From Planctomycetota bacterium (GTDB taxonomy: Bacteria; Planctomycetota; JAMOSO01): a stretch of 37,740 nucleotides of DNA. Below the pieces are notes generated by a model. That model was not told the DNA's origin and did no database searches. It saw only the letters and a program-made list of their open reading frames with translations. The position numbers and the translations under genes were made by a program. Below are positions 595-37,112 of this stretch, one piece after another; the first letter of the stretch is position 1, and every line of letters begins with the position of its first letter. The DNA is taken from positions 1 through 37,740 of the forward strand of contig JAMOSO010000038.1 of the NCBI GenBank assembly GCA_027063065.1, given 5' to 3'.

Positions 595-804
595 ATGATT
601 AATAATTTACAGTCGTCTCAGACTATTCAACAGATAGAATATGAAATTAGTTCTTTATCAGAAGTAACAGATGAGTTACAAGCGTTTAATTTAAACACTT
701 TAAAAGTGTCAATTCAAGCTTTGGAATCAACGCCACTAGATTGTATGCCAGTAACTAGTTTTGTACCTAATAATCATTGTACATCACCGCTTATTGGGTC
801 ATAA
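595..804 (+). CDS. Small hypothetical protein downstream of flagellin
   Basis: A 69-residue ORF that I do not recognise. It starts 22 bp after the flagellin terminator and has a plausible ribosome site (GCGAGG) a few bases before the ATG. The product is polar, rich in Gln, Ser and Glu in the first 45 residues and predicted mostly helical. It has no signal peptide or membrane segment. Its last 31 bp overlap the 3' end of the convergent gene on the other strand. The position after flagellin would suit a small flagellar accessory protein such as FlaG, but no FlaG motif is visible. It could also be the remnant of a longer gene. Existence as a gene is uncertain. Confidence 0.4.
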   Translation: MINNLQSSQTIQQIEYEISSLSEVTDELQAFNLNTLKVSIQALESTPLDCMPVTSFVPNNHCTSPLIGS

Positions 805-1805
805 ATATAATCTATGCCTGTAGGAGAATTAGGTAAATCCTTGGTAATATTGCGAGATATTAATTCGCTTAAAGTCATTGGAAAGTAGCCATATTTCTTT
901 TTAAAGAGAGCAATGATTTTTTTGAGATACACAATATTTTTGGCGTAGTTTTCATTATTAAATAATTGGCAACTCACTTTGCCATTGATTAATGTGTATG
1001 CTTTTCCGAATGGATCTTTTGGTATTTGGTTTATAGTGCCTTTTGGGGTTTTAAAGCCTTGTAAATTTTTAAGCGTTTTAGGTAAATGTCCAAATATATT
1101 TTTGTATAAATCCACAGCTGATTGTAGGTGTTTAATCATCTCTTGGGCGTTGATTCTTTTAATTTGTTCGGTGGCTATTTTTTTACGTTTTTTATCGGGG
1201 CTATTGGCAAAATTACGCCACATTTGACGAGCCTCTTCAAATCCATCGTCTTGTACATAATAGTCAGTTGCTTGTTCAAATAAGATAGATGCGTCTTTGC
1301 CTTGGTTAGTAGCTGTTTGTGCCGCCATTGCAAAGTATTTGGCCGAATTTATTTTGTCTTTGGCAAAAAAACTATAAACGTGTGCTAAGTCATATTGTAA
1401 ACGCCATACATTTGGGTTGTTTTTTACCCCTTTTGTTAATATTTTTATTGCTTCTGGGGTTTTTAAGGCTGCGCTGGTCAGTAAAAAACCACCATAATGA
1501 TAGGCTTTAACAAATTGAGGGTCTAAATCTGTTATAACATCAAAAATACGTGCTAAATATGGAAAATTTCTATCAATTCCAAAATGTCTAGTTACATAAC
1601 AAAGGGCTTTATTCCATAGGATGTCTGCAAAAACACCTTTAATACCACAACTTGTCATATCTAAGGCAGGGCCTTTAGGCAAATATCGCATTTCGCCAGT
1701 TAGATTTAAATCTGGTCTAGTTTGATTGATTTTATTTTGAGTTACAAAACCAAGACCAATACAAAAAAGTATTAAAAATAATGTAATTATAATGTTTTGT
1801 TTCAT
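774..1805 (-). CDS. Membrane-anchored TPR-like protein with two pseudopilin-like C-terminal modules
   Basis: A 343-residue protein with an N-terminal hydrophobic segment (about residues 4-22) that acts as a signal anchor or signal peptide, so the rest is probably periplasmic. Residues about 75-215 are helical hairpins of TPR type (for example LTKGVKNNPNVWRLQYDLAHVY). The C-terminal third has two copies of a short module resembling the tail of type II secretion pseudopilins: a helix, then a Tyr/Phe-Gly-x-x-Pro turn (FGHLPKTL, YGYFPMTLSEL), then a Pro-Asp/Asn strand (IPKDPFGKAY, LPNSPTGIDYIYDP). Such TPR proteins with a pseudopilin-like tail occur in PVC bacteria and deltaproteobacteria, function unknown. 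No Shine-Dalgarno precedes the ATG. A -10-like box sits 6 bp upstream. It is divergent from the TPR-SPOR lipoprotein. Confidence 0.8.
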   Translation of the reverse strand: MKQNIIITLFLILFCIGLGFVTQNKINQTRPDLNLTGEMRYLPKGPALDMTSCGIKGVFADILWNKALCYVTRHFGIDRNFPYLARIFDVITDLDPQFVKAYHYGGFLLTSAALKTPEAIKILTKGVKNNPNVWRLQYDLAHVYSFFAKDKINSAKYFAMAAQTATNQGKDASILFEQATDYYVQDDGFEEARQMWRNFANSPDKKRKKIATEQIKRINAQEMIKHLQSAVDLYKNIFGHLPKTLKNLQGFKTPKGTINQIPKDPFGKAYTLINGKVSCQLFNNENYAKNIVYLKKIIALFKKKYGYFPMTLSELISRNITKDLPNSPTGIDYIYDPISGDVQ

Positions 1806-1811
1806 AGCAGT

Positions 1812-1840
1812 AGTTTAGCGTAGCGATTTGATGTGTTAAA
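1812..1840 (-). promoter_or_regulatory. Candidate promoter, leaderless type
   Basis: On the minus strand TTTAAC (1840-1835), a 17-bp spacer, and TAAACT (1817-1812) lie 6 bp before the ATG of the TPR/pseudopilin-tail gene. Both boxes are only partial matches. Support comes from the same spacing being seen at other genes in the window. Confidence 0.35.
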
Positions 1841-1907: not shown

Positions 1908-1916
1908 TGGTATACT
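1908..1916 (+). promoter_or_regulatory. Candidate extended -10 promoter, leaderless type
   Basis: TGG followed by TATACT (1911-1916) forms an extended -10 element. The ATG of the lipoprotein gene is at 1923, so transcription would start at or next to the start codon. No good -35 and no Shine-Dalgarno are seen. Confidence 0.45.
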
Positions 1917-1922
1917 ACGCTT

Positions 1923-2741
1923 ATGAAACAAATAATTAGTTTTTGTATATTATTAATTTTTATTGGTTGTAATGCTGTAACGCATAAAAATAAATTAGTG
2001 CCTTTATCTGCGCAATCAGACTATCGACGTGTGATGGTTAAGGTTTCGCCGCTATTGTTGGCAGGTAATTATTATCAGGCTCAAAGGTTATTAAAAAATA
2101 CTCAGGGTTTTTTAAGGGGTTCTAAATTTTTTTATAATACTCAATATTGGTTGGGCGAGTGTTCTGTTGGACAGGGTGATTATATTGGCGCACAAAAATA
2201 TTATTATAGTGCATATAAAGGTTTAGATAATGGGCTCACAAAAATATTGTCAGTTGATGCATTGGCAAGAGCCTATTATTTTAACGGACAATATCAACAG
2301 GCATTAGCGTATTTTACTATAGTTTATAAACAGTATTTCTCTAAAGTTAATGGTCAAAAATTATTGTTTTTAATGGCAGATGCCTATAAGCAAACTGGCA
2401 ATTTACCAAAGTATAGGTTGTGTTTAAACCAGTTAAAATATAAATTTCCTAATAACACATTTGATACCAAGGTTGTTAAGACAGAGTATCATTTAACAAA
2501 ATCAAGTGTTAAAGATTTAAAAACAGATAAATATTATTTGCAATGTGGTATTTTTTCAGATGCTAAAAATGCTACGGCGTTAATTGCCAAATTGAAATGG
2601 AATGGTTTTAGTCCTTTTTTAATAAAAAAGCCCACTGGCAAAGTGTATGTAATACTTGGTTATTATAGTTCAAAACAAAGGGCAAAATTAGAGTCTAAGC
2701 AATTAAAACGATTTGGATTTGATAGTGTGGTAAAACAATGA
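1923..2741 (+). CDS. TPR-SPOR domain lipoprotein
   Basis: A 272-residue envelope lipoprotein. I choose the ATG at 1923 over the longer in-frame ATG at 1863 because it gives a clean lipoprotein signal: Lys at position 2, a hydrophobic core, and lipobox FIGC with Cys16. Residues about 40-190 are TPR-like helices (YYQAQRLL, YIGAQKYYYSAYKGL, QYQQALAYF). The last 65 residues match the SPOR fold that binds denuded peptidoglycan glycan strands: YYLQCGIFSDAKNATALIAK, then a VYVILGYYSSKQRA strand-helix. It is probably tethered to the outer membrane and touching the septal or lateral wall. The stop codon overlaps the start of the ABC ATPase gene by 4 bp (ATGA), so the three genes are co-expressed, which suggests a common envelope function. 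The specific role is unknown. Confidence 0.85.
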   Translation: MKQIISFCILLIFIGCNAVTHKNKLVPLSAQSDYRRVMVKVSPLLLAGNYYQAQRLLKNTQGFLRGSKFFYNTQYWLGECSVGQGDYIGAQKYYYSAYKGLDNGLTKILSVDALARAYYFNGQYQQALAYFTIVYKQYFSKVNGQKLLFLMADAYKQTGNLPKYRLCLNQLKYKFPNNTFDTKVVKTEYHLTKSSVKDLKTDKYYLQCGIFSDAKNATALIAKLKWNGFSPFLIKKPTGKVYVILGYYSSKQRAKLESKQLKRFGFDSVVKQ

Positions 2742-5729: not shown

Positions 5730-6980
5730 ATGGCTTCACACAATCCTTTTACTATGGCGCAAAGCCAATTAGATGAAGTAGCAAAACTTTTAGAGTTAGA
5801 TGAAGTAACCCATGAATTTTTGCGTTGGCCTCAAAGAGAATTTACAGTTAGATTGCCAGTTAAAATGGATAATGGCACGACTAAAATTTTTACAGGTTTT
5901 AGGGTTCAATATAATAGAGCATTAGGACCTACTAAAGGCGGTTTGCGTTGGCATCCAGATGAAACTATTGACACAGTCCGTGCGCTTTCTGCTTGGATGA
6001 CATGGAAAACGGCAGTTTTGGATTTACCATTAGGAGGAGGCAAAGGTGGTATTATTTGTGATCCTAAACAGTTATCAGAGGCTGAGAAAGAGCGTCTTGC
6101 CCGAGCCTACGTTAGGGCATTGCGTCATGCTTTTGGACCAGAAATTGATATCCCAGCACCAGATGTGTTTACATCGCCAAAAATTATGGCTTGGATGATG
6201 GATGAATATGAAACTTTAGAAGGTAAACATCAACCGGGAGTAATTACAGGAAAGCCATTGCCAATAGGTGGTAGTAAAGGTCGTATGGACGCTACAGCTC
6301 GTGGCGGTATGATTATTTTGCGTGAAGCGGCTAAGAAGTTAAATTTAGATTTAAAAGGCAAGACTATGGCGTTGCAGGGATTTGGTAACGTTGGTAGATT
6401 TGGAGGTTTATTAGCAGAGCAATTGCTGGGTATTAAAGTTGTGGCAGTGGCCGATGAGAATGGTGGAATTTACAATGGCGATGGTATTTCTATGCAAGAA
6501 CTTGCTCAACATGTCGACAAAACAGGATCGGTTATAAATTTTGCTAATACTACAAAAATTAACAATTACAGCGATATTATTTCTCAAGATGTGGATGTGT
6601 TTTGTCCAGCAGCTTTAGAAAATGTTATTAATCAACAAAATGCCGATACTGTTAAGGCTAATATTATATTAGAACTTGCCAATGGACCTACTACTCCAGA
6701 AGCAGATGCTATTTTGGCGGCTAATAATCAATTGGTTTTGCCAGATTTTTTAGTTAATGCCGGTGGTGTAACTGTAAGTTATTTTGAACAAGTGCAAAAC
6801 AATACTAATTTTTATTGGAGTCAAGAAGAGGTCAATCAAAAGTTAGAAGAAAAAATGACATTTGCTTTTGAAGGTGTATATAAAATTGCTCAGGAACATA
6901 AAGTTTCTATGCGTAAGGCAGCTTATATTGTCAGTATTATGCGTGTTGCAGAGGCAAGTCATTTACGAGGTTGGGTATAA
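5730..6980 (+). CDS. gdhA: Glutamate dehydrogenase (Glu/Leu/Phe/Val dehydrogenase family)
   Basis: Interconverts glutamate with 2-oxoglutarate and ammonia using NAD(P), joining nitrogen assimilation to the citric acid cycle. The 416-residue length is typical of the hexameric small GDH. The dimerisation/substrate domain has [11 protein letters not shown] (66-76) and LPLGGGKGG with the active-site Lys105. The catalytic Asp is in PAPDVFTSP (Asp145). The Rossmann domain has GFGNVG (217-222). [11 protein letters not shown] lies near the C-terminus. The start is firm: it has a strong ribosome site and a promoter. Cofactor preference cannot be decided by eye. The following gene starts 5 bp after the stop, which makes a two-gene operon. 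Confidence 0.97.
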
Positions 6981-9977: not shown

Positions 9978-12182
9978 TTAATTTTTCCAATAAGTTTTTT
10001 TTATAATCCAACCATTATGATCCCATTTGATTTTTTGGTTGGTTGGTTTTCCATTTTTAAAATGTTGTTCACTTTCTTTTTTGCCGTCTTTAAAAAAAGT
10101 TTTCATAATTCCATTTTTTAAATTGTTTGTATAGTTAGCTTGTATGGCTAAGTGTATTGTTGCTTGATGTATAGTAATGGGATACCAAGTTTTAAAACTA
10201 CCATTTAATTGTCCATCTAGCCAATGAGACTCTTCTTTAGGTGTTCCGTTAGCATAAAATTTTTTCATTACACCACTGGCTTTTCCTGACAACCATTGAC
10301 TTGTTTCTAATAATTGACCATTTGGATACCAACGAGTACGAGTACCGTTTAATAATCCATTTTTATAATCGCATATTTGCTGTATATTTCCGTCATTATA
10401 AAAAATTAGGTGTTGTGCTTGTAATACGCCTTTGGCATATTGCATTTTTTGTTTTAATGAACCGTCGTTGTTGTATTCGTACCATTGTCCATCAAATAAG
10501 GCTTTATCTGTACCAGCAACAAAATTACATTTTATATGTATCGAACCGTTGGGATACCAAGATTGATATTTGCCTACAATCATACCCTTAATCATTTTGT
10601 ATTCTTGTGCTAGTTGACCGTTGTCATAGTATTGATTGATTAAACCTGTTGGGTAAAAATTATTATTTTTGTCAAACACACCAGCCATATTCCATGCAAT
10701 AATACCATTGTCTCTAACAAATATTAATCGGTCACCGTTTTTCTTGGGTAGATTTTTAACATTGACTTTAGCCCCATCAAAAGTTTGTAGGTTATCAATT
10801 AAATTGCGTTGTATGATTGTACGGCTACCTTGATAAATTGCCGATACAGTTTTCGGTGTAAACCTAAGCTGTGTAACTGGCGCAAGTTTGAGGCCGCTTT
10901 TTAAAATTATGGTTGTTATGATAGATTTAATATGTTGTACAGAAGTTTTTGTGTAGGGATTGGCAAATTTTTTATCTAATTTTAAAGTGCCATTTTTATT
11001 GTAATAGCGTTGTTTTGTTATGCGTCCATTTATGTAGGTGTCTTCTTGTTTTAACCTACCATTGTCGTAAAATTCTAAACAAAGACCTTCGCGTAGATTG
11101 TTTTTAAAATATTCGCGTTTGTGAATATTGCCATTTTTATAATATTCTAAAAACAGTCCATTGCGCATCCCGTTGAGCCAATTAGCTTTGATATGTAATT
11201 GGTTATTTTCAAAATAACGCTCAACTGTTCCATGACATTTGTTGTTTAAGTATGGGATAAAACTTTTTTGACCATCTTTGTGATATATTCTAGCAATACC
11301 ATTTTTTAAACCATTTGTATATGGTGTTACAGAAGCTATATGACCGTTGTTATAATAAGTTTTTACATTACCAACTATCTTATTGTTTTGATATGGTATT
11401 TGGCTTTGTATATGTGAGTTTCTAAAGTATTTAGTTGTTTCACCATTTAATAAATCATTGTTAAATATATTGATTTCTTTTAAACCGCCACCGGCAAAAA
11501 ATATTTTTTGTATACCTTGTTTTTTACCATTGTAAAAAGTAGTTGTTTGAAAAACAGAACCATTGATAAAATATTTATTTTGTGTTCCGTTTAGTTGGTT
11601 CTCTTTAAAATGTTCTTTTAATAAAATAGAATTATTATTAAAAAAAGTTTTGGCAATTCCATTGAGTTTGTTTTTGTAAAAAGTTTTAATTTGATATTTT
11701 GCACCATTTTTACGCCAATGTATTAAGGTCCCGTTTTTTAAATTATCCTGATATATTAAAGACGTCCGTGTTGCGCCATTGTGAAAAAAGTTAATATTCT
11801 CACCATTTAACTTGTCATTTTTATAGTTTTGTAATTGGCAAATGTGTGTGTGTTGCTTGTCATGTTTATGATTAAAATAAAAAAAAGCTTTTCCGTTTAG
11901 TTTTCCATTTTTAAAGTTTATTTTTTGCAATAAATTACCGTCAAAATCAAAGAGCTTGGTTTGTCCATTTAATAAATTATCTACATAAACGCCTTGCCAT
12001 TGTAGGTGGCCATTGCGATACCAACGTTTTGATTTGCCATTTAATTTTTGATTATTACGTTGCCAACTTTGTTTGATTTGATTGTTGTCATAGTAGACGA
12101 TAACATCACCATCTTCTTTTAAATTGGCTCCAAATGCTTGGGTGGATAAGCATATAGCTAAAAGTAGATGTTTTATTTTCAT
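9978..12182 (-). CDS. Large exported MORN-like (YwqK-type) repeat protein
   Basis: A 734-residue protein with a signal peptide (KIKHLLLAICLSTQAFG) followed by about 25-30 repeats of 20-24 residues. The consensus is a Tyr/Phe-Tyr-x-Asn/Asp-Gly start, a polar strand, then N-G-x-x-N-G, for example RYYNKNGTLK and QSWYPNGSIH. These are beta-hairpin repeats of the MORN_2/YwqK type. Residues about 405-505 break the pattern with a non-repeat region (helix near SIITTIILKSG, then TVSAIYQGSRTIIQRN), and repeats then resume to the C-terminus. It is predicted to lie in the periplasm or on the cell surface. Family function is poorly known: surface or cell-contact proteins in some bacteria, antitoxin-like naming in others. 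The latter name carries no evidence here, because no toxin is adjacent. Start has no Shine-Dalgarno but a promoter ends 6 bp before it. Confidence 0.88.
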   Translation of the reverse strand: MKIKHLLLAICLSTQAFGANLKEDGDVIVYYDNNQIKQSWQRNNQKLNGKSKRWYRNGHLQWQGVYVDNLLNGQTKLFDFDGNLLQKINFKNGKLNGKAFFYFNHKHDKQHTHICQLQNYKNDKLNGENINFFHNGATRTSLIYQDNLKNGTLIHWRKNGAKYQIKTFYKNKLNGIAKTFFNNNSILLKEHFKENQLNGTQNKYFINGSVFQTTTFYNGKKQGIQKIFFAGGGLKEINIFNNDLLNGETTKYFRNSHIQSQIPYQNNKIVGNVKTYYNNGHIASVTPYTNGLKNGIARIYHKDGQKSFIPYLNNKCHGTVERYFENNQLHIKANWLNGMRNGLFLEYYKNGNIHKREYFKNNLREGLCLEFYDNGRLKQEDTYINGRITKQRYYNKNGTLKLDKKFANPYTKTSVQHIKSIITTIILKSGLKLAPVTQLRFTPKTVSAIYQGSRTIIQRNLIDNLQTFDGAKVNVKNLPKKNGDRLIFVRDNGIIAWNMAGVFDKNNNFYPTGLINQYYDNGQLAQEYKMIKGMIVGKYQSWYPNGSIHIKCNFVAGTDKALFDGQWYEYNNDGSLKQKMQYAKGVLQAQHLIFYNDGNIQQICDYKNGLLNGTRTRWYPNGQLLETSQWLSGKASGVMKKFYANGTPKEESHWLDGQLNGSFKTWYPITIHQATIHLAIQANYTNNLKNGIMKTFFKDGKKESEQHFKNGKPTNQKIKWDHNGWIIKKTYWKN

Positions 12183-12188
12183 AAATAT

Positions 12189-12217
12189 ATTTTAAGCTAG
12201 TTGGCAATGTAAGGCAA
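12189..12217 (-). promoter_or_regulatory. Promoter of the MORN-like gene, leaderless type
   Basis: On the minus strand TTGCCT (12217-12212), a 17-bp spacer and TAAAAT (12194-12189) are followed by 6 bp and the ATG at 12182. This is the best-supported case of the short-spaced promoters in this window: both boxes and ideal spacing are present, and no Shine-Dalgarno is. Confidence 0.6.
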
Positions 12218-12254
12218 CTTATCTTCGTGAATTTAAATTATAAATATCCACAAA

Positions 12255-12287
12255 AAAAGCCCTAAAAATAAAGTATTTAGGGCTTTT
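12255..12287 (-). terminator. Terminator of the chaperone operon
   Basis: A 12-bp perfect inverted repeat (AAAAGCCCTAAA with TTTAGGGCTTTT, 9-nt loop) is flanked on the minus strand by a run of seven T (complement of 12252-12258). It sits about 22 bp after the FmdB-type gene. Confidence 0.9.
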
Positions 12288-12309
12288 AAATTTTAATAAT
12301 AAGTTTTTA

Positions 12310-12516
12310 TTAAGAGTCTTTTTTATCTTGTTTTTGCTTGTAATCAGTTTGATAAAAACCATTGCCTTTAAAATGTATGCCTGCACCAGTGCCTATTAGA
12401 CGTTCTAATTTTGGTTTTTGGCAGGCAGGGCAAACAAGTAGTTTGTCATCACTCATATTTTGAAATTCTTCAAAGTGATGTCCACAAGCCTCACATTCAT
12501 ACTGATAAGTTGGCAT
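12310..12516 (-). CDS. FmdB/CxxC_CxxC-type zinc ribbon protein
   Basis: A 68-residue protein that starts MPTYQYEC, the family hallmark. Two CxxC pairs (CEACGHHFE near residues 8-11 and CPACQKPKLER near 29-32) form a small zinc ribbon, and the tail is charged (KQKQDKKDS). The family is related to FmdB regulators but is mostly of unknown function. I choose the ATG at 12516, because a longer in-frame version would overlap grpE and lose the family N-terminus. Only one base separates it from the grpE stop codon, so it is translated with grpE and ends the dnaJ-grpE transcript before the terminator. A link to proteostasis is suggested by position only. Confidence 0.9.
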   Translation of the reverse strand: MPTYQYECEACGHHFEEFQNMSDDKLLVCPACQKPKLERLIGTGAGIHFKGNGFYQTDYKQKQDKKDS

Positions 12517-14451: not shown

Positions 14452-16071
<1,620 letters not shown>

Positions 16072-16083
16072 TTATAATCTCCT

Positions 16084-16374
16084 TTACTTTCCAGACTTAG
16101 CCAGAATGTCAGATTCTTTAAGAATTAAAAGTTCTTTTCCATCAACAGTAATTTCAGTTCCACCATATTTACTAAAAAGTACAACATCGCCTTCTTTTAC
16201 GTCTAGTGGGGCAACAGTACCGTTTTCAAGGGTACGTCCAGGTCCAACAGCTAAAACTTTAGCTTCTTGAGGTTTCTCTTGCGCACTGCCAGGCAAAAAA
16301 ATACCGCCAGCAGTTTGGGTTATAGCTTCCATGCGCTCTACAACAATTTTATCGCCTAATGGTTTTAAATTCAT
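16084..16374 (-). CDS. groS: GroES co-chaperonin, second copy
   Basis: The 10-kDa lid of the chaperonin, 96 residues. It starts [12 protein letters not shown], has the mobile loop around residues 17-35 with the GroEL-contacting hydrophobic triplet IFL in [12 protein letters not shown], and ends with the family strand [15 protein letters not shown]. It lies 26 bp after the first groEL, with AAGGAT as ribosome site, and 12 bp before the second groEL. Pairing with that copy is the natural reading. It differs from the other GroES in the mobile loop (IFLPGS against IIIPDS), which may set partner choice. Confidence 0.97.
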
Positions 16375-16400
16375 TTTTATATAATCCTTATTAATTTTAA

Positions 16401-18071
<1,671 letters not shown>

Positions 18072-18083
18072 TTATACCTTTCC

Positions 18084-18371
18084 TTAGTTAACAACAACTA
18101 AAATGTCATCTTCACGCATAATTAGAAGTTCTTCGCCATCGACTTTAATCTCGTCGCCAGCATAAGAAGTAAATAAGACAGTGTCACCTTTTTTGACGTT
18201 CATAGTGCTACGACTGCCGTCTTCCAAAATTTTTCCAGGTCCAACAGCAATAACCTTGGCTTCTTTTGGTTTCTCTTGGGCGCTGTCGGGGATTATAATA
18301 CCACCGGCAGTTTTTGTGGCCGCCTCAAGTCGCTTAACAATGATGCGATCATGTAATGGCTCTAGTTTCAT
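18084..18371 (-). CDS. groS: GroES co-chaperonin, first copy
   Basis: Co-chaperonin lid, 95 residues, and the promoter-proximal gene of the chaperone block. [14 protein letters not shown] opens the protein. The mobile loop is about residues 17-35 with the triplet III in [12 protein letters not shown], and [18 protein letters not shown] closes it. The ribosome site AAGGAGAG is strong. The intergenic region upstream (18372-18634) has no CIRCE element, so HrcA control of the usual type is not supported. A different 20-bp palindrome is present there. Confidence 0.97.
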
Positions 18372-18495: not shown

Positions 18496-18515
18496 CAATT
18501 TGACCAGTCAAATTG
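18496..18515. promoter_or_regulatory. 20-bp palindrome, candidate operator
   Basis: CAATTTGAC, two bases (CA), then GTCAAATTG: 9-bp perfect arms in the divergent region between groES and the COG3014-like lipoprotein gene, about 125 bp from groES and 120 bp from the lipoprotein gene. A perfect TTGACA (18474-18479, plus strand) lies 16 bp to its left. No T run follows, so a terminator is unlikely. Even-spaced perfect symmetry fits a dimeric repressor or activator site. Confidence 0.45.
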
Positions 18516-18622: not shown

Positions 18623-18628
18623 TAATAT
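18623..18628 (+). promoter_or_regulatory. Candidate -10 of the lipoprotein operon, leaderless type
   Basis: TAATAT at 18623-18628 ends 6 bp before the ATG at 18635. No Shine-Dalgarno is present and no good -35 is seen. The call is supported mainly by matching spacing at other genes here. Confidence 0.3.
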
Positions 18629-18634
18629 ATGGTT

Positions 18635-19999
18635 ATGAAAAATTTTTATTTTAAATATGTGTTTTATTTGCTTTTGATTTGTTTATGCGCATGTACTTCA
18701 AATAAGCGCAATGGACAACGGGCCTTTGATATGGCTTATTCATTGGGTAACTATCAAAGAGCATTAGATGGTAACAAGGTTGATTTTCACAAATCTTTGA
18801 GGGGGCAGTTGATTGAGTTGTTGCAAAGGGCAATGGCATATAGAGCCTTGGGTGATTATTCTAATAGCAATAAATGTTTTAATTATGCCGAAAAAGCAGT
18901 CATACAGCAGTATGATGATGGCAAGTTTTTAGGTGATATCAGTGCTACATTGTTTAATGATACAGTTTTAGATTATCGGGCCAGCGAATTTGAAGCTGTG
19001 ATGATAAATACTTATAAAGCTTTAAATTATTGGCAATTAGGTCAAATGGATGATGCAAGGGTAGAGTTTAACCGTGCAATTGATCGTCAAAGGCGCGCTA
19101 AAGATTTTTTTGCCAAAGAAATCAATAAGGTTAAGGCAAAGCTTAAAGAGTACGATTCTAACAAAAGTGAAGGTGTCTCAAGTGCAAGAAGCATTATGGA
19201 GAGTCCTGAACTAAAGGGCATTTTAGCATCTAGATATCACACTTTAGATAATTTTAAAGTGTATAAAGATTTTATTAATCCTTATGTATCGTATATAGCG
19301 GGTTTGTTTTTTATTGCAGATAAGGACTATAACAAGGCTACAGATTTGTTAAAACAAGCTTATGCTATGGAAGAAGGTAACTCTGTTGTGCGCGACGATT
19401 TTGAGTGGGTGGAAAAACACCTAGATGGAGTAAAGTCTTTAGGTAAGAAATATGTTTGGTTAATTGCCGAATTGGGAATGGCACCTAAATTTGTAGAAAC
19501 CCGTATTAATATTCCAGTGTTTTTGGTGAGTAATAAAGTGATGTATGTGGGTATTGCCTTGCCAAAGTTGGTTATGGATGATTTTATTGGGCATATCACA
19601 ATGTTGGCTAAGAAATCTCAAATATGCGCCAGTATGGATAGGGTTGTGCAAGCCGAATTTAAAAAACGCTTTAAGATTATATTGACTAGAGCTATATTGG
19701 GGGCAATCGCTAAAGTCAGTGCGCAATACTTTGCTAATAAAAGTTTAGGAGATTTAGGTAGTTTTGCCATGGCAATTTATCAATTTAGTACAATATCGTC
19801 TGATACGCGTTCATGGCGTAGTTTGCCAAAGCAATTTGAGTTGATAAAAACTCAGTTACCAGCTGATGGTAAAGTAGATATTAAAGATAACAATGGACAT
19901 TCTTTAATTCTACAGGTGCCAAAAGATAAAAATTCTGTTATATTTTTACGCAAGCCAAGTATGCAAGCTAGGCTTAATTATCAAATATTTAGTTTTTAG
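18635..19999 (+). CDS. COG3014-like lipoprotein
   Basis: A lipoprotein of 454 residues. The signal peptide ends at LCAC, giving lipidated Cys20, and the next residues (TSNKRN) contain no inner-membrane retention Asp. Residues about 25-260 are helical and TPR-like (LLQRAMAYRALGDYSNSNKC, ALNYWQLGQMDDARVEFNRA, FNKATDLLKQAY-type units). The C-terminal part is beta-rich and ends with SLPKQFELIKTQLPADGKVD. This domain order and the following ycfL-like and lpoB-like genes match a three-lipoprotein set known from gammaproteobacteria and some other diderms. I choose the ATG at 18635; an alternative ATG at 18629 adds two residues. Role probably in outer-membrane control of wall synthesis, inferred from the neighbours. 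Confidence 0.8.
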   Translation: MKNFYFKYVFYLLLICLCACTSNKRNGQRAFDMAYSLGNYQRALDGNKVDFHKSLRGQLIELLQRAMAYRALGDYSNSNKCFNYAEKAVIQQYDDGKFLGDISATLFNDTVLDYRASEFEAVMINTYKALNYWQLGQMDDARVEFNRAIDRQRRAKDFFAKEINKVKAKLKEYDSNKSEGVSSARSIMESPELKGILASRYHTLDNFKVYKDFINPYVSYIAGLFFIADKDYNKATDLLKQAYAMEEGNSVVRDDFEWVEKHLDGVKSLGKKYVWLIAELGMAPKFVETRINIPVFLVSNKVMYVGIALPKLVMDDFIGHITMLAKKSQICASMDRVVQAEFKKRFKIILTRAILGAIAKVSAQYFANKSLGDLGSFAMAIYQFSTISSDTRSWRSLPKQFELIKTQLPADGKVDIKDNNGHSLILQVPKDKNSVIFLRKPSMQARLNYQIFSF

Positions 20000-31945: not shown

Positions 31946-34188
31946 TATTTTTGCGCAGATTCTTTTGTAACTGGTTTTAAGTTAGCCGGTTTTTTTTCGT
32001 GAGCATTGGTTGTTGCGGCAACTTTTTTTTGATTGTCAGTTTTTTGTGATTTTGCTTTTAATTTAGCAATGTCGGATATTATTTTTGATTTTAACATTGC
32101 AATATCTTGTTTTAATTGTCCTTGAGTATTTTTGATGCTATAAAGTTGTTTTAAGCTATCTTTGTATTTTTGTTGAGCGTATAAACTCATAGCTAGATGA
32201 TAAGTAATTAAGGCTTTTAAATGGCTGTTTTGAAAGTGAAACGAATTACCAATAAGAGGTTTTAATTTTTGTGCTTTTATCAAAGTTTGTTGAGCTAATA
32301 GAGCCTGATTGTTATACAAATATGCTATTGCTAAACTGTCTAGTATGGCGGGGTTTTTATCAGTTAATTTAAGGGCCATTTTTGCATATTTTAATCCAAG
32401 TTTGTATTTTTGTAATTTTGTAGAGCATAAATAACTTAAATTATTAATTGCAGCTAAATTTCTAGGGTTATGAGCAATTAAATCTTCAAGGTTTTTTTGT
32501 GCCTGTGAATATTGTTTTAGCGCGATATGATTTACAGAAAGAGCAAATAAGGCTGATTCTTTGTAGGCTATTACATTACTAAGTATGGTAAAGTGTTTGA
32601 TTGCCATTGCGTAGTGTTTGGTCTGTTGGGCGCGTTTGGCTAAGTCTAAGCGAGTAGGGTAGTTTTTTGGTGCCAAATCAACTAATTGATTAAATCTTTG
32701 CAGTGCCAATTCTATCTTGTTTTGTTGCCAGTTTATTTTGCCAAGGTATGTTAAAGCTTCTTGATTGGTAGCATCAATTATTAAAGCTTTATTAAAAAAT
32801 TCTTCGGCTAAAGTTAAATTGTTTTCTTGCCAAGCAATAAATCCTAATTTTATATAAGCTTCTATACTTTGAGGTTTAATTTTAATGGCACGGTTTAAAT
32901 ATGCTTTGGCTTGTTCGTAGTGTTTGTTAGTAAAATGAATACTACCTAAAGCTATTAAGGCTTCATAATACTTAGGATTACGTTTCAATGCTATTTTTAA
33001 AGATGTTATAGCTGCACTTTGGTTGTTTAATCCAAGTTGGCATTTTGCCATACACCAAGGATAGTATGCAGATTGCGGTGCTAAATTTTTAGTTAATTTA
33101 TGGAAGTATGGTAATGCTTTTTTATATTTTTGTTCATTTAAATATATCTGGGCTAATTCGCTGTTTAAAATTAAATTATTTTCAAATAGATTTAAACCAT
33201 CTAAATAACTACTAATAGCACTTGTTGTTTCTTCTATAGCTGTAAAAGTGCGAGCTTTCCAAATGTAAGTGTATAAAATATTTTGATTTCTGAATAAGGC
33301 GCGTTGTAAACTGCGAAGAGCTTGGTGGTATTCTTTGTTTTGATATAAGCCTATGCCAAAAGCTAAATGACCCCATGGATTATCTGGTGTTAATTGGCTT
33401 AATTCATAACCTAATCTACCAATGTTAGCCATACTGTTTGCGTTATTAGATGCTAAAATCGCTTTGATTAAACGGGGTAATATGTAGCTACGATTTGCCC
33501 CTAATTGTAAAACTTCTAGATATTGTTTGCGGGCTTGATTGTATAATTTTAAATCAAAAGAAATATCACCTAATGTCGATTTGATTTCTAAATTTGCCCA
33601 AAGTGGTAGGGACTCTTTTAATGCGCGTTTAAAGTGTAAACTAGCGGTATCATAACGTTTAATGGCTAACCAAGCATAGGCTTTGCGCATTTGATTTATA
33701 CCATATTTATTTAACTGAGGTTCTTTAATAAAAGAGATATCAAGCACTTCTAATAATGGGATGTTTTCTACCACGCCATCTACTCTGGCGTTGATAATTA
33801 TTGGCGTATACATTGGCATAGAACGTAATTTGTTAAAATTTTGGTTATATCTACTAATGTAGCAAGTAGTAAATAGTGAGCGTATACCATTATCAGTCCA
33901 TAGTTGAGCACGGTCTGGCCAAATATGAAAATTTAAAAATTGCTCTGATGTAAAGGCAGATAAATTTGGTAAAAATAATTTACCAGGGCCTTTGTATAAG
34001 GCTTTAATAGTAATTTCTTTATTGTAATATGCTTTTGGAGATTTGGTTAATTCGTTTAGTTCAATATAAACCTTTGGTTGCTTTAGACCTAAAGTTTCTT
34101 TGATTTTCAATATGTCTTGTGCGGCATCACCAACGGCGTTAAAACACAGACCCATAATAATTGCTAAAGATATAATAAGGTTTTTCAT
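31945..34188 (-). CDS. Exported TPR protein with N-terminal beta domain
   Basis: A 747-residue protein with a signal peptide (KNLIISLAIIMGLCFNAVG). Residues about 35-150 make a beta-rich, OB-fold-like domain (EITIKALYKGPGKLFLPN, TPIIINARVDGVVENIP). From about 175 to 660 run tandem tetratricopeptide repeats, well formed in YYEALIALGSIHFTNKHYEQ and AYIKLGFIAWQENNLTLAEE, totalling perhaps a dozen or more. A Lys/Ala-rich low-complexity tail (from about 700) ends the protein. It is likely periplasmic and a scaffold. It is the first gene of the operon and has a near-perfect ribosome site (AAGGAGGT, 4 bp before the ATG). The reason for its joining to recN is unknown. Confidence 0.9.
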   Translation of the reverse strand: MKNLIISLAIIMGLCFNAVGDAAQDILKIKETLGLKQPKVYIELNELTKSPKAYYNKEITIKALYKGPGKLFLPNLSAFTSEQFLNFHIWPDRAQLWTDNGIRSLFTTCYISRYNQNFNKLRSMPMYTPIIINARVDGVVENIPLLEVLDISFIKEPQLNKYGINQMRKAYAWLAIKRYDTASLHFKRALKESLPLWANLEIKSTLGDISFDLKLYNQARKQYLEVLQLGANRSYILPRLIKAILASNNANSMANIGRLGYELSQLTPDNPWGHLAFGIGLYQNKEYHQALRSLQRALFRNQNILYTYIWKARTFTAIEETTSAISSYLDGLNLFENNLILNSELAQIYLNEQKYKKALPYFHKLTKNLAPQSAYYPWCMAKCQLGLNNQSAAITSLKIALKRNPKYYEALIALGSIHFTNKHYEQAKAYLNRAIKIKPQSIEAYIKLGFIAWQENNLTLAEEFFNKALIIDATNQEALTYLGKINWQQNKIELALQRFNQLVDLAPKNYPTRLDLAKRAQQTKHYAMAIKHFTILSNVIAYKESALFALSVNHIALKQYSQAQKNLEDLIAHNPRNLAAINNLSYLCSTKLQKYKLGLKYAKMALKLTDKNPAILDSLAIAYLYNNQALLAQQTLIKAQKLKPLIGNSFHFQNSHLKALITYHLAMSLYAQQKYKDSLKQLYSIKNTQGQLKQDIAMLKSKIISDIAKLKAKSQKTDNQKKVAATTNAHEKKPANLKPVTKESAQK

Positions 34189-37043: not shown

Positions 37044-37049
37044 AGCTGT

Positions 37050-37055
37050 ATTGTA
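37050..37055 (-). promoter_or_regulatory. Candidate -10 of the GT4-radC-thiL operon, leaderless type
   Basis: TACAAT (minus strand, 37055-37050) ends 6 bp before the ATG at 37043. The -35 region is poor. No Shine-Dalgarno lies between them. Confidence 0.4.
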
Positions 37056-37096
37056 GGGCTATGTCATTAAAAAGAAAGTGCGTATTTTAGTTTAAA

Positions 37097-37105
37097 TGTT
37101 ATAAT
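37097..37105 (+). promoter_or_regulatory. Extended -10 promoter of the heptosyltransferase-like gene, leaderless type
   Basis: TGT followed by a perfect TATAAT (37100-37105) makes an extended -10 element. The ATG is at 37113, 7 bp later, so the message would begin at or next to the start codon. Confidence 0.55.
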
Positions 37106-37112
37106 ATTTTAA

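Follow-up and report, generated by a model that had tools for sequence, protein, structure and literature searches.

Promoter-to-ATG spacing predicts a class of leaderless genes in a low-GC planctomycete genome

Described leaderless systems and the host genome

Leaderless (TA-led) genes were found in 207 of 953 bacterial genomes by Zheng et al. 2011 (PMC3160421). In these genes the Shine-Dalgarno (SD) sequence is replaced by a TAnnnT/TAtaaT box some 10-12 bp upstream of the start codon, and the middle A/T positions of the box become informative in low-GC genomes; in both respects they are like the genes of the genome analyzed here (the host genome). The main holders in that survey are Actinobacteria (about 20%) and Deinococcus-Thermus (about 40%), whereas Planctomycetes are not named in its text. 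The Deinococcus genes with a -10 motif have been tested by mutation and with reporters (PMC12340547) and are mixed with SD genes, as in the host (PMC12340547; de Groot et al. 2014); in our own pipeline they also have the order of spacings of the host (6 > 7 > 8 bp). They account for about 30% of ORFs on average, whereas the host class represents about 4-6% of genes in a genome with 34% GC and a frequent -35-like box. In Leptospira interrogans, mapping by dRNA-seq gave about 440 leaderless mRNAs (PMC5243855). This bacterium is likewise a diderm, with hundreds of mapped mRNAs that have a leader of 0-10 nt and mixed functions, but it belongs to an unrelated phylum.

Two further sources concern bacteria more broadly. 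A figure from GeneMarkS-2, as quoted in PMC9581028, gives leaderless transcription as predicted in 21.6% of bacterial species, and Nakagawa et al. 2017 (PMC5397173) found one Planctomycetes species to be positive, by principal component, for leaderless and/or S1 signals. The latter entry is from the same phylum as the host, but it covers one species by composition only and leaves the leaderless and S1 signals unseparated, whereas in the host the promoter is resolved. For Planctomycetes, this one-species signal is the only entry that we found in the literature consulted, and we found no mapped transcription starts there. An earlier note on this DNA held leaderless mRNAs to be less expected in a Gram-negative of this kind, a view that has been overtaken by the Leptospira mRNAs, the quoted GeneMarkS-2 figure and the positive Planctomycetes species. 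As the leaderless architecture is established elsewhere, the host is a solid new instance of it, and it adds a controlled example, resolved at the promoter level, of leaderless initiation from Planctomycetota, where this route is barely documented.

The window analyzed here is a stretch of 37,740 nucleotides that represents the entire contig 38 of a genome of 71 contigs and 2.13 Mb. By its sequence the host is a deep, low-GC, uncultured planctomycete and not a proteobacterium, because its GroEL is 62-67% identical to homologues from Omnitrophota, Kiritimatiellota, Verrucomicrobiota and Planctomycetota, because in the GroEL tree it sits next to planctomycetes on a long branch (support 97/94; the exact place of the long window row is unsure) and because all 29 listed relatives are related to it at phylum level only. 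Genomes classed as belonging to the same phylum carry several GroEL copies. In a quick tree, those with correctly read rows group among named Planctomycetota; twelve rows of this tree are in the wrong strand and carry no meaning. The anti-Shine-Dalgarno region at the 3' end of the host 16S is intact (AGAAAGGAGGTGATCC, reverse strand).

Promoter-like boxes and start codons in the window

The features annotated in the window are listed in Table 1. An Rfam search of the window gave no match.

Table 1. Positions of the promoter-like boxes, genes and probable terminator annotated in the window
Feature	Position	Strand	Details
-10 box, ATG 1805	1812-1817	-	TAAACT, 6 bp before ATG; posterior 0.90; no SD
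-35 box, ATG 1805	1834-1839	-	TTAACA; 16-bp spacer
-10 box, ATG 1923	1911-1916	+	TATACT, extended (TG 1908-1909), 6 bp before ATG; posterior 0.96; no SD
gdhA, SD-led contrast	5730-6980	+	AGGAG at 6 bp; -10 TATACT 41 bp upstream
MORN-repeat protein gene, predicted leaderless	9978-12182	-	ORF, 734 aa; Pfam MORN_2 7e-47; no SD
-10 hexamer, MORN gene	12189-12194	-	TAAAAT, 6 bp (ATATTT) before ATG; 4.9 bits; leaderless-class posterior 0.87
-35-like hexamer, MORN gene	12212-12217	-	TTGCCT; 4/6 matches, 17-bp spacer
Probable intrinsic terminator of the gene upstream of the MORN gene	12255-12287	-	12-bp perfect stem, 9-nt loop, U-run
groES, operon-first, SD-led contrast	18084-18371	-	AGGAG at 5 bp
Weak -10-like box, ATG 18635, not counted	18623-18628	+	TAATAT, 6 bp before ATG; 1.9 bits, no -35
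-10 box, ATG 37043 (glycosyltransferase)	37050-37055	-	TACAAT, 6 bp before ATG; posterior 0.94; Pfam Glycos_transf_1; no SD
-10 box, ATG 37113	37100-37105	+	TATAAT, 7 bp before ATG; no SD; frame runs off contig

The promoter layout that the earlier note had given for the MORN gene (TTGCCT, 17 bp, TAAAAT, 6 bp and ATG, with no SD) is exact on reading. The inverted repeat upstream of the MORN gene, a probable terminator, folds at -14.8 kcal/mol (z -2.8) and leaves 72 bp before the MORN gene, and therefore the MORN promoter must sit in those 72 bp. A simple consensus terminator scan with a loop limit of 8 nt did not list this 9-nt loop. Scanning of 12100-12420 (321 bp) gave two promoter-like sites against 1.7 +/- 1.2 in shuffles, and one such site taken alone can be due to chance. 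Homologues of the MORN gene elsewhere in the phylum have diverged too far for promoter comparison; two more partial MORN-like matches were observed in the host genome and 47 MORN-like matches in a distant planctomycete genome (G017).

The same 6-7 bp distance, which had been reported to recur at five other starts, was found at 1805, 1923, 37043 and 37113, while the claim weakens at 18635. The -10 boxes score 4.9-6.7 bits at the five strong window sites versus the low score at 18635 (Table 1), where an alternative start, ATG 18629, has a leaderless posterior of 0.04. The start of the 1923 gene was refined from 1863, the start of its longest ORF, as the -10 box at 6 bp and a lipobox-like N-terminus (MKQIISFCILLIFIGC) favor 1923 as the true start. 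A plain coding model had put this start 60 bases off and hidden the probable lipoprotein signal, an example of why a leaderless model should be used when calling gene starts in genomes of this kind. The divergent genes at 774-1805 (minus strand) and 1923-2741 (plus strand) both start with ATGAAACAA (Met-Lys-Gln); their protein matches differ, being a weak T2SSG match for the first and TPR plus SPOR for the second. At the other end of the window, 69 bp (37044-37112) separate the ATGs of the divergent glycosyltransferase-type genes 37043 (minus) and 37113 (plus), and since -10 boxes occur at 6-7 bp on both sides, two promoters lie within less than 70 bp.

The ribosome sites reported at contrast genes are likewise present, with AGGAG 5-6 bp before gdhA, groES and the TPR gene at 34188 (at 5-6 bp in the latter). 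As gdhA is leadered, a -10 box as far upstream as its own (41 bp) is expected.

Genome-wide spacing and the size of the predicted class

A total of 1,878 genes were called with a dicodon model that is blind to upstream signals, and a gene was taken as first if it is divergent or more than 60 bp from its same-strand neighbour. Exact TATAAT before the ATG of first genes occurs 18 times at 6 bp and zero to six times at other distances. With a learned PWM (at least 5 bits), the 594 first ATG genes have 39 matches at 6 bp, 18 at 7 bp and 8 at 8 bp over a background of 6.0 (sd 3.0) at 12-59 bp, giving a z of 11.2 for the 6-bp peak. No 6-bp peak was observed for operon-inner genes (z 1.6) or for random internal Met codons (z 0.6), and GTG/TTG starts have zero PWM matches at 6 bp. 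Among the 253 genes with a single possible start, 20 have a match at 6 bp, against 2.5. A mixture model seeded with the two consensus motifs recovered AGGAG at 4-7 bp and TATAAT at 6-7 bp in first genes, and no spacing on shuffled sequence. The earlier note had named the lack of an excess of -10 hexamers at 6-7 bp as its refuting outcome; the genome-wide count shows such an excess and so does not refute the note. The preference is more precisely for 6, then 7, then 8 bp, and the 'many' genes of that note correspond to about 11% of first genes.

The same pipeline gave 0 at 6 bp in 200 kb of E. coli K-12. In 200 kb of Deinococcus deserti plasmid 2, TANNNT was found at 8.0, 4.5 and 2.3% for 6, 7 and 8 bp over a background of 0.6%, a profile of the same shape as that of the host. 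These results bear on chance as an explanation, in which an AT-rich genome gives TATAAT-like words before any ATG and the fitting spacings were picked. Besides the site density near the MORN gene, which does not exceed that of shuffles, such a reading can draw on the raw genome-wide counts of TATAAT-N6-ATG made without gene calls, which show no clear peak as background and codon phase swamp the signal; raw counts of this kind would be useless in relatives. Once genes are called, however, the peak stands at one distance and in first genes only (z about 10-11), and with the blank E. coli profile and the independent -35 signal described below chance is refuted genome-wide and hardly credible as an explanation.

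Two features that played no part in selecting the genes, a -35-like box and the size of divergent gaps, agree with this picture. A TTGACA-like hexamer (at least 4/6) was found 16-18 bp upstream of the -10 box in 48 of 107 predicted leaderless genes versus 12.7% at other spacers (p 2.8e-16), as in the architecture TTGACA-18-TATACT-6-ATG; the other 59 have no -35-like box at 4/6. The absence of a leader is also expected to shrink divergent gaps for each such gene, and the median gaps are 163, 107 and 82.5 bp for zero, one and two leaderless genes respectively (Spearman -0.53, p 1e-9). TATAAT was counted 12 times against a mean of 0.9 for its own anagrams. An AT bias at -20 to -10 can reflect either leaderless starts or S1 binding (Nakagawa et al., PMC5397173), and the AT-rich block might accordingly be a translational element within a normal leader, such as an S1/A-U enhancer or a Bacteroidetes-like A-rich signal. 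We consider this highly improbable, as it is TATAAT itself and not its anagrams that is enriched, the spacing is sharp, a -35-like box lies 16-18 bp further up, the divergent gaps are shorter and the signal is missing from internal genes, whose need for S1 is equal.

It would also be possible for the promoters to be real and for the protein to start at a downstream SD-led codon, leaving the gene leadered. The start calls are computational and refinement shifted 8 of the 107 leaderless starts. Against this, an in-frame start with a strong SD occurs within the next 30 codons in only one of the 107 leaderless genes (three of 444 SD genes), and the 6-bp peak holds in genes with one possible start, so that a downstream start is an extremely unlikely account of the class.

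Refinement of the starts gave 107 leaderless calls among 711 first genes versus 23-33 at decoy distances, leaving about 80 after decoy subtraction, equal to 11% of the first genes and some 4% of the gene total; by the same counts about a quarter of the single-gene predictions may be false. The divergent genes contribute 80 calls out of 396 (decoy 16-22), while the 24 calls among 908 inner genes show no excess over the 17-24 at decoy distances. An EM mixture with free spacing gave a share of 16.8% (bootstrap 14.6-20.5). This serves only as an upper guide, since refits at decoy spacings also take up 17-30% of genes, assigning them to other or leadered motifs. Because a free-spacing EM puts the leaderless share too high, the estimate given here comes from decoy subtraction. 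ATG is the start in 104 of 107 leaderless and 406 of 444 SD genes, with ATG preference scored in both classes. None of the 68 first genes with a strong -10 box also has an SD, although this separation is in part imposed by the spatial overlap of the two sites.

SD-led starts are the majority and leaderless starts the smaller class. The -10 boxes of SD first genes lie anywhere from about 12 to 42 bp before the start, consistent with leaders of about 6-36 nt. In about 160-180 first genes of the host genome, both a clear SD and a -10 box at 6-8 bp are missing; these genes may have a weak SD, a wrong start call or another signal.

Taken on sequence statistics (promoter position, absence of an SD, the -35 signal, restriction to first genes, the ATG start and gap compression), leaderless starts are very probable for the MORN gene, for four more genes in the window and for some 80-110 genes genome-wide, nearly all of them first in their units. 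We infer where the 5' end lies and how the ribosome starts, and a 5' UTR of 1-3 nt would look the same as none in such an analysis. The housekeeping sigma factor would bind the -10 box (TAtaaT), often together with a -35-like box 16-18 bp upstream of it. With a discriminator of 6 bp, transcription would start on the A of the ATG and give an mRNA that opens with AUG and has no leader and no Shine-Dalgarno. Ribosomes would presumably recognize the 5'-terminal AUG with initiator tRNA through a 70S or IF2-assisted route. The set of about 107 genes is on hand for direct 5'-end mapping.

Functions encoded by predicted leaderless and SD-led genes

The earlier note tied the pattern to envelope and LPS genes, and a specificity of this kind might reflect a dedicated regulon. 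The window fits such a reading through its MORN, SPOR/TPR and two glycosyltransferase-type genes, and a Pfam sample of 50 leaderless genes adds three glycosyltransferases and a Wzy-like protein (ligase). The same sample, however, is functionally mixed, as it contains AraC-, GntR- and sigma54-type regulators, RecR, UvrB, TilS, MnmG, a SPOUT methyltransferase, HrpB-type enzymes, helicases, peptide deformylase, transporters and metabolic enzymes. There is also no excess of exported proteins, with N-terminal signal or anchor segments (heuristic) in 16% of leaderless versus 19% of SD first genes (p 0.67); polytopic proteins amount to 10% versus 5% (p 0.12). The mixed sample and the similar share of signal or anchor segments therefore indicate a broad leaderless class, and the envelope reading fails and is very unlikely. 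The leaderless reading of the spacing is in itself well supported; its extension to envelope and LPS genes is not supported.

A Pfam sample of 40 SD genes contains GAPDH, EF-P, RNase Y, a glutamyl-type tRNA synthetase, RF3, transporters, response regulators and a polysaccharide export protein. In the ribosomal-protein cluster most heads are SD-led, as is the groE unit, and none of these was called leaderless. Codon adaptation is 0.649 for leaderless genes versus 0.668 (p 0.002), and among divergent genes alone the difference has a p of 0.11. As the difference is not significant among divergent genes alone, no expression bias is claimed, and any tilt of leaderless genes to weak expression is slight. 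It is conceivable, although we think it unlikely, that leaderless starts form a regular second initiation route for genes of low expression (those for AraC-type regulators, DNA repair, RNA modification and sugar transfer), with the ribosomal, chaperonin and central metabolic operons keeping SD leaders. If true, this two-route split could let the cell shift translation between gene sets under stress.

Two groES-groEL pairs lie in tandem on the minus strand at 14452-18371, in the order groES-like (18084-18371), groEL (16401-18071), groES-like (16084-16374) and groEL (14452-16071). The two GroEL proteins share 58% identity, and the pairs are followed by dnaJ and a grpE-like gene. A perfect inverted repeat, CAATTTGAC-CA-GTCAAATTG, was observed at 18496-18515 (plus strand) in the 257-bp region between the divergent groES and TPR genes; it has no likeness to CIRCE and may be an operator.
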